Source: Prochlorococcus sp. AG-409-O23
GTDB taxonomy: Bacteria; Cyanobacteriota; Cyanobacteriia; PCC-6307; Cyanobiaceae
Direction: 5' to 3'
Assembly (NCBI GenBank): GCA_003215355.1
Contig: QCKL01000002.1
Location: forward strand, 46,531-110,530
Length of the DNA: 64,000 nt
A program made the translations under genes and the position numbers. Every line of letters starts with the position of its first letter. Position 1 is the first letter of the stretch. The notes under the pieces were generated by a model. The model made no database searches, was not told the DNA's origin, and saw nothing but the letters and a program-made list of their open reading frames with translations. Shown here piece by piece: positions 35,630-59,431 of the stretch.

Positions 35630-36410
35630 CTCGATCTTCTCCTGAAATCACCTTGCTTTGGTTTAAGCAGTGCATCCTCCAACGGTTGTTGCTAATTGGT
35701 TCTACTATCCAGTCGCGCCATTGCCAGGCATCTTTTTTTTGTTTTAGGTCCTGAACAGGTTGGTTTACTAGTTGAGCTAGCTCATTGGAGGTAAGGCTAT
35801 ATCCACATTTGGCGAATTTATCTGCCATCTCTAATCTTGAGAGCAGCTTTTGAAGCTTTTGAGGTCCTGGTTGAGTGTCTTGGGTAGATGAGCTGTAAGC
35901 AGGATTTGGAATTAATTCAAGAGGCTTTGATTTCTCATGGCATTGGCTTGAGATATCAACGCCTCTTGAAAAGCTCACAGCAATTTTGTCGACTCTTTCA
36001 TTATCTGGATCACCACTATGGCCTTTTACATATTCTAGAGATACATCTGAAAGCTTAGCTTGATCTAATGCTTGCCATAAGTCTTTATTCAGGACTGGTT
36101 TTCCAGCACTTGTTTTCCAGCCCTTAAGCTTCCAATTAGATATCCATTGTGTTAGTCCATTAATCAAATATTTGCTATCGGTTCTTATTTTTAGCTCTGG
36201 AAGTCTTGGCAGCTCTTTTAGCTTTTCAAGAGTTTTTAAAGCTGCTTTCAGTTCCATTCGGTTGTTAGTTGTATGGGGTTCAAATCCGCCTAGCTCTTCA
36301 ACGGTGCCATCTTCAAATCTGATTAAAGCTCCCCAGCCTCCTGGGCCGGGATTGCCACTACATGCTCCATCAGTTGCAACCGCTATTACTCGTCCTCTCG
36401 TGTCACTCAT
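35622..36410 (-). CDS. rnhA: Ribonuclease HI with ~100-aa C-terminal extension
   Basis: [53 protein letters not shown]; extra C-terminal domain. Confidence 0.92.
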
Positions 36411-57362: not shown

Positions 57363-58346
57363 ATGCAGTTCATAGATCAGGCACGAATTACGGTTAAAGC
57401 AGGCCAAGGAGGCGATGGGATCGTTGCCTTTCGGCGAGAGAAATATGTGCCTGCAGGGGGTCCATCAGGAGGCGATGGCGGTAAAGGCGGTCACGTGGTA
57501 CTTATGGCAGATGCAAATCTTCAGACCCTTTTGGATTTCAAGTTCAAGAGAGTGTTTCTGGCTGAGGATGGTCGTAGAGGTGGGCCAAATAGGTGTAAAG
57601 GAGCGTCTGGGAAAGAGTTATTGATTAGGGTCCCTTGCGGTACTGAAGTAAGGCACTTGAATTCGGGAATAATTCTTGGCGACCTTACAGAAAATGGAGA
57701 AAAGCTTGTAGTTGCTTTTGGAGGGCGAGGTGGTCTTGGTAATGCTCATTACCTCAGCAATCGCAATCGTGCTCCAGAGAAGTTCACTGAAGGTCGTGAT
57801 GGGGAAGAATGGCAATTACAGCTGGAATTGAAGTTATTAGCAGAGGTTGGAATTATTGGCTTGCCAAATGCAGGGAAGAGCACATTAATCGCTGTTCTTT
57901 CTTCTGCCAGACCAAAGATTGCTGATTACCCTTTTACTACATTGATACCTAATCTAGGGGTAGTCAGAAGGCCAAGTGGTGATGGGACTGTTTTTGCAGA
58001 TATCCCTGGGCTAATTGCTGGAGCGGCTCAAGGAGCAGGCTTAGGCCATGATTTTCTGAGGCATATTGAGCGAACTAAGCTCCTTATTCATCTTTTGGAT
58101 GGCGGTGCTGAAGATCCTCTGGCAGACCTATTAGTGGTTGAAAAAGAATTGAAGTCCTATGGACAAGGACTTATTGATAGACCCAGACTTTTAGCTGTCA
58201 ACAAACAGGAGCTTTTGGAGGAGGATCAACAGGCAGATTTGGTTAAGTCTCTTGAGGTAGCAAGTGGAATAAAAGTTTTGCTGATTTCAGCAGCTATGGG
58301 TAGAGGCCTGGACGAGCTTCTTGATCAGATTTGGGACAAGCTTTGA
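57363..58346 (+). CDS. obgE: Obg GTPase (ObgE/CgtA)
   Basis: [72 protein letters not shown]. Confidence 0.97.
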
Positions 58347-58424: not shown

Positions 58425-58607
58425 ATGACCTTTTACAGTTGCTTCGATGGGCAAGGTGCAGTAATTGCGCGCTGTCAAACCCATCAAGAGATTGAAGTTC
58501 TTCGTCGAATGGGAAGACCAATTGTTGAAGTTCGGGAGATGAAGAATGAAGAAGCAATTGTTTGTTCACTGACCAGTAGTCCATCTGACTTCAATCTTGA
58601 TTATTGA
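58425..58607 (+). CDS. Small hypothetical protein (60 aa)
   Basis: MTFYSCFDGQGAVIARCQTHQEIEVLRRMGRPIVEVREMKNEEAIVCSLTSSPSDFNLDY; protein-like composition, co-directional with obgE. Confidence 0.7.
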   Translation: MTFYSCFDGQGAVIARCQTHQEIEVLRRMGRPIVEVREMKNEEAIVCSLTSSPSDFNLDY

Positions 58608-58629
58608 AGTCAGATGGACTACTGGTCAG
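58569..58629. repeat. Perfect 27-bp inverted repeat with 7-nt loop overlapping the 3' end of the 60-aa CDS
   Basis: CTGACCAGTAGTCCATCTGACTTCAAT (58569-58595) - CTTGATT - ATTGAAGTCAGATGGACTACTGGTCAG (58603-58629). Confidence 0.97.
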
Positions 58630-58711
58630 GCCCAGTTGAGTTGTCGAAGAGTAGAGCGCGGTGATATCGCTCTACTTCCTCTTGCTCGACCATTAAATTG
58701 GATCGATTAAA

Positions 58712-58930
58712 TCAATCGTCGTATACGAGGCACTCTGGCTCATCTGGATTTGCATCACAGAAGAGTTCCAATGCATTTGGATCATGCTTGTCTTCTGGAT
58801 GGTGTTCCTTGTATTCCTCAAGAGAATGAAGCTCATCAGTTAAGTGACGAACCTTGGCGTCGTTGCCTTGGGCTTTTGCGGACTGGATCTCGGATTGATC
58901 CTTCTGGATGTGATCGTCGATGGTTTTCAT
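58712..58930 (-). CDS. CP12-type Calvin-cycle regulatory protein (C-terminal CP12 motif); frame open upstream to 59098
   Basis: MKTIDDHIQKDQSEIQSAKAQGNDAKVRHLTDELHSLEEYKEHHPEDKHDPNALELFCDANPDEPECLVYDD; C-x8-C CP12-like tail. Confidence 0.8.
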   Translation of the reverse strand: MKTIDDHIQKDQSEIQSAKAQGNDAKVRHLTDELHSLEEYKEHHPEDKHDPNALELFCDANPDEPECLVYDD

Positions 58931-59431
58931 GCGTTCTTGGCCTGCTCTGGCCTTTGTCGACTGCCACACCATACGGCCGTTAGGCAGTTGTGCCATGGGT
59001 GTAAACGACACTTGGTTTGCTTTACAACACCATTGCCAAGACTGCATATCCCTGCTTGCCCGCTGAATAGGGAGTTTTGGGTGAAATGAATGGTACACAT
59101 TTTTGACCGACAGAGCTGCTGTTTAGCCAATGATTCTTGCGATGTGTTCTAGGTCAATGGTCAAAAGGTCTTAGCTGTCTCTCTGAACAGTATCAATGCC
59201 TCGTTAGGTTGACTGCTTTGGACGTTGGGTATGGCCGTAAAGCGCTTCGTTTGATTGCTTCCACTAAGTGATTTGGTTGTATAACTTTTGTCTCCATAAT
59301 ATGGAGTAGATAGATAATTATCTCGTTCAAGATTGCTCTGATTTTGACTGGCTTAGGTCGACTAAATTATAATTAGTTAAGAGTGTTGAATTGAATAGAA
59401 ATATCGTAAATATAGTTTGAAGATTTAGAAT

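Follow-up and report, generated by a model that had tools for sequence, protein, structure and literature searches.

A perfect 27-bp hairpin between convergent genes in Prochlorococcus, probably formed by template switching from the coding end of a small gene

Introduction

Quasipalindrome template switching, in which a pre-existing short inverted repeat allows the reverse complement of a sequence to be copied off the adjacent strand so that a perfect hairpin forms in one step, is established in E. coli reporters (PMC7202029) and has been proposed, from reconstructed histories, as a source of perfect RNA hairpins (PMC8794818). How long perfect stems arise is an open question; step-by-step mutation should rarely build them (PMC8794818). 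At the 3′ ends of bacterial and plastid transcripts, two kinds of strong stem serve as points of comparison. Bidirectional intrinsic terminators lie between two convergent stop codons and are symmetric on both strands, while the 3′-stabilising hairpins of E. coli REP-type ends (PMC13289151) and the inverted repeats of plastid 3′-UTRs are strong stems without a U-tract. In bacteria without Rho, most transcript ends are unexplained (PMC13289151).

We analysed a 64,000-nt stretch of a Prochlorococcus genome (hereafter the window) that carries a long perfect hairpin between two convergent genes. The hairpin shares the features of quasipalindrome template switching given above, and differs in three respects: a bacterial gene supplies the template with its conserved coding end, two convergent genes share the 3′ end at which the product lies, and the event is deduced by comparison rather than seen as a mutation. 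It resembles a bidirectional intrinsic terminator, the form found in most orthologous spacers, in position, stem strength and symmetry, but has no A or T tract on either side, one coding arm, and a stem longer than most. Like the U-tract-less stabilising hairpins it is a strong 3′ stem, but it is neither a repeated nor a homologous element, and stabilisation is predicted only. The part of the literature covered by our search contained no report of template switching creating 3′-end hairpins at bacterial genes.

Results and discussion

Gene order around the hairpin

The hairpin overlaps the end of a conserved 60-aa open reading frame (ORF; 58425..58607, + strand) that has no assigned function and belongs to no family in Pfam or NCBIfam. 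The ORF follows obgE (GTPase Obg; 57363..58346, + strand; PF01018 and PF01926) and faces a convergent CP12-domain gene (58712..59098, − strand; PF02672, E 2.5e-18), whose start codon is uncertain. The order obgE, 60-aa ORF, convergent CP12 is conserved in picocyanobacteria, and the ORF was present in 165 of 300 genomes of the family. In the search of genome contigs, 34 of the 35 ORF loci were labelled Prochlorococcus or related cyanobacteria, and the remaining one (L037) was a weak partial match in a Caldisericia MAG. The end of the ORF faces a CP12-type end in all 90 distinct orthologous loci, window included. The 89 other loci, all from outside the window's genus, formed the comparison set; the closest obgE protein among loci with flanks was 80% identical.

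Geometry and uniqueness of the inverted repeat

A repeat search confirmed the perfect inverted repeat at 58569-58629 reported in the initial annotation, with 27-nt arms that are complementary at 27 of 27 positions and lie 7 nt apart. The left arm (58569..58595, + strand) consists of exactly nine in-frame codons, codons 49-57 of the ORF (LTSSPSDFN), as had also been stated, and the loop (CTTGATT, 58596..58602, + strand) holds the codons for L and D and the first base of that for Y. The right arm (58603..58629, + strand) had been described as an exact inverted copy outside the gene; the copy is indeed exact, but it does not lie wholly outside, since it opens with ATTGA (58603-58607), which is made up of positions two and three of the Tyr codon followed by the TGA stop codon (58605-58607).

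This hairpin was the longest perfect one in the window and the second longest in 1.085 Mb of the genome, behind one of 29-30 bp described below. The palindrome occurs once in the assembly (G000; 1.38 Mb, 55 contigs, 69% complete), even with 3 mismatches allowed. Three triplet shuffles of the genome sequence gave no stem longer than 12 bp, and shuffles of genome and spacers together gave none above 13 bp; chance origin was thus ruled out, in line with the earlier judgement that the repeat is unusually long and perfect for a chance hairpin. RNA folding of the 141 nt around the hairpin gave z = −9.0, that is, 9 standard deviations below shuffled sequence, and the stem alone amounts to about −49 kcal/mol on either strand. 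No T-tract follows the stem on either strand, again as annotated: the + strand reads GCCCAGTT and the − strand TGAACAAA. Elsewhere in the window, positions 35916-35970 form an imperfect palindrome with 27-nt arms that are 85% complementary around a 1-nt centre.

The right arm is derived from the coding arm

The right arm was absent from 89 of the 89 other distinct orthologous loci, in which the left arm is present as coding sequence and pairing at the position of the hairpin extends over at most 10 bp. When the spacer of the window was compared with the loci with flanks, the right arm matched only the reverse strand of the ORF, at 23 of 24 nt in L056 and 22 of 24 nt in L008, L015 and L016, while the final 30 nt running up to and into the CP12 end aligned normally to L008 (29/30). 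As the left arm is coding in relatives and the right arm either absent or matched only by the reverse strand of the ORF, the left arm is the ancestral one, from which the right arm was later copied in inverted form. The direction of copying, which can rarely be read off, is readable here because coding constraint acts on one of the arms.

The short inverted repeat TCAAT-N7-ATTGA (58591..58607, + strand), which we propose as the seed for snap-back priming, is encoded by the codons FN-x-D-Y-stop and was found at the same codons in 13 of the 89 other loci, thus in some relatives and not in all; the longer TTCAAT-N7-ATTGAA occurs in seven of them. L005 carries a 10-bp version of this inverted repeat with an identical loop length.

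Template switching (quasipalindrome mutation) is very probably the origin of the hairpin: the derived arm is the exact reverse complement of its ancestral neighbour, and a short inverted repeat is available as a priming seed. As replication passed the 3′ end of this gene, the newly made strand would have folded back at TCAAT-N7-ATTGA over the last codons and the stop, used some 22 nt of its own coding sequence as template, and then rejoined the original template. The LTSSPSDFN codons would thereby be repeated, exactly and in inverted orientation, around and past the stop, with protein and stop unchanged. The spacer between the ORF and CP12 measures 104 nt in the window and 101 nt in L008, so the copied stretch replaced existing sequence or later losses trimmed the spacer. 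A recent snap-back (templated inverted) duplication, which the initial annotation had offered as one possibility, is therefore well supported by the missing right arm in 89 loci, its reverse match to the coding DNA of relatives and the seed in some of them. The hairpin looks like a snapshot of a single replication error building such a structure. The mechanism itself is already known; the origin is clear, and the consequence is modest unless the wider pattern described below holds.

Hairpins in the orthologous spacers

A perfect stem of at least 8 bp was present in 79 of the 89 other spacers, compared with 6% of shuffled spacers, and stems of at least 20 bp were found in 16. A or T tracts occur at the stem ends in 61 of these spacers, on both sides in 50; the scan covers stem ends, and some loci counted as having no tract (e.g. 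L013) have one inside the stem. The hairpins of relatives are unrelated in sequence to that of the window and lie outside the ORF. In the comparison across relatives suggested earlier, the right arm is indeed absent, but the rule that absence means duplication only was too strict, as unrelated hairpins occupy the same place. The comparison supports the view that the new perfect hairpin sits at a site usually taken, in this gene pair, by a terminator-like hairpin.

In seven related loci, the arms differ and yet pair, with 96.8% of cells paired and five pairs changed on both sides. Every slid control scored lower in this paired-change test, which used only these seven related sequences and a structure drawn from one of them, while the count of double-changed pairs was not extreme relative to shuffles (62/500). 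We therefore treat the paired changes in this one clade as supporting evidence only. In L133, a 24-bp perfect hairpin in the spacer extends as far as both convergent stop codons.

Possible role at the 3′ ends

The hairpin has the stem-loop of a canonical intrinsic terminator (27 bp, 7-nt loop, about −49 kcal/mol) and lacks the U-tract directly after the stem; it is thus not a canonical intrinsic terminator, and the initial annotation was correct on this point. Its other proposal, a hairpin acting between convergent transcripts, is plausible since most orthologous spacers have some hairpin there. If the transcripts of the 60-aa ORF and CP12 extend that far, both would carry the hairpin in their 3′ ends, where it would most likely act as a two-way structure, a barrier to 3′-to-5′ exonucleases that also slows read-through or ends it weakly. 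The left arm is translated, so that a ribosome would keep it melted up to the moment of leaving the ORF. A template-switch origin and a use of the hairpin are not alternatives, one being the origin and the other a possible use. Granted the origin, a 3′-end role is somewhat favoured; taken together, template-switch origin and two-way 3′-end role make a reading that we consider likely.

In cyanobacteria a hairpin role cannot be taken for granted, as transcript ends without U-tracts are mostly unstructured in S. elongatus (PMC13289151). Downstream, a second hairpin (58649..58677; 10 bp, 9-nt loop), with a T-rich but interrupted tail on the + strand, could be a working terminator, possibly a weak one. 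No known structured RNA family matched above the Rfam gathering threshold. Sub-threshold matches were mostly to microRNA models, and the weak similarity to the plastid psbJ 3′-UTR model among them is of the kind that long stems tend to give. A promoter-like match on the minus strand (58629-58600) was no better than in shuffles.

Long perfect hairpins elsewhere in the genome

In 1.085 of the 1.38 Mb of the window's genome, eight perfect stems of at least 20 bp were found, at gene ends or between genes. Seven of the eight lie outside called genes, though about 88% of the DNA was called coding, the exception being the 27-bp hairpin; these counts are approximate because genes were called by a simple ORF heuristic. 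The longest perfect hairpin (L090:17159-17219 on contig C4; 29-30 bp, loop of 1-3 nt) follows a gene that we take from its translation to be fba, faces the presumed purQ, and has no U-tract. At the fba end of relatives, long perfect stems of unrelated sequence are present (24 bp in L189, 23 in L193, 22 in L196 and 26 in L204), several of them without a U-tract after them.

The stem in L204 (1422-1493, in the purQ/fba spacer of G051) is a second case in which a coding end forms one arm: 20 nt of the end of purQ (EALIAK, the conserved PurQ C-terminus, and the stop) and 6 nt of spacer make up one arm of a 26-bp perfect hairpin, and the other arm is an inverted copy that was not seen in the other purQ ends compared. 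G051 is a one-contig genome listed as 100% complete, and the 0.8 Mb examined contained four stems of at least 20 bp, a density similar to that in the window's genome.

Alternative explanations

The alternative closest to the preferred reading keeps the template switch and drops the role: the hairpin would be a young, functionless by-product, and both transcripts would end at the hairpin at 58649-58677 or by a noncanonical pathway. We regard this as possible but the less probable reading. The perfect arms suggest youth, the 27-bp hairpin has no U-tract, a second hairpin lies nearby, and most transcript ends in S. elongatus are independent of hairpin terminators (PMC13289151); however, a hairpin is kept in most orthologous spacers, with paired changes in one clade, and long perfect hairpins avoid coding interiors genome-wide. 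The opposite idea, that the hairpin is an old canonical or RNase III-processed structure selected since before the genus arose and not a recent copy, is very improbable: the spacers of most relatives are occupied by hairpins, but these lie outside the ORF and show no sequence relationship to that of the window, and no relative has its right arm.

An artefact, either a chimeric join from single-cell whole-genome amplification or an assembly error as raised in the initial annotation, is improbable. The draft assembly looks like that of a single-cell genome, as guessed from size and fragmentation, inverted joins are common among amplification chimeras, whose overlaps peak at 6 nt (PMC4595205), and no independent copy of the palindrome was found in the viral contigs searched. 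Against this, a palindrome with normal flanks requires two switches within 27 nt, the other long perfect stems of the assembly lie outside genes in spite of the high coding fraction, and hairpins of this kind are not explained by single-cell amplification, because the one-contig genome G051 shows the purQ case and a similar stem density. Some doubt stays, as overlaps of about 6 nt serve in the formation of chimeras as well. Least probable of all is a mobile repeat element, REP-like sequence or protein-binding operator. Palindromes of similar size are known in such elements, but the repeat is present in one copy only at up to 3 mismatches, which led us to reject a REP- or MITE-like element, and its left arm is conserved host coding sequence.

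Possible renewal of hairpins at gene ends

Apart from the origin at this locus, we tentatively raise the possibility, doubtful as it is at present, that Prochlorococcus-type cyanobacteria keep renewing long perfect 3′-end hairpins, many of which have no U-tract, through template switching where genes end, such that the sequence turns over fully between species, the position persists, and the coding end of the gene can be one arm. Should the same process supply 3′-end hairpins throughout the picocyanobacteria, replication errors would be connected with the way transcripts end in bacteria that, to our knowledge, lack Rho (cyanobacteria, Prochlorococcus-type included). Sets of closely related strains would make such renewal directly testable. 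The literature that our search reached, which is incomplete, held no description of long perfect hairpins at the ends of Prochlorococcus genes.

Three further observations concern individual hairpins. In L204, the fba reading frame beside the hairpin ends earlier than in relatives. An 18-bp perfect hairpin (L119:4285-4327, on contig C19 of the window's genome) lies inside the coding part of a gene for a recC-like exonuclease V subunit, which is unusual given that long stems are otherwise outside genes. A 19-bp perfect hairpin in L017 (1433-1474) is apparently located within a minus-strand open reading frame.
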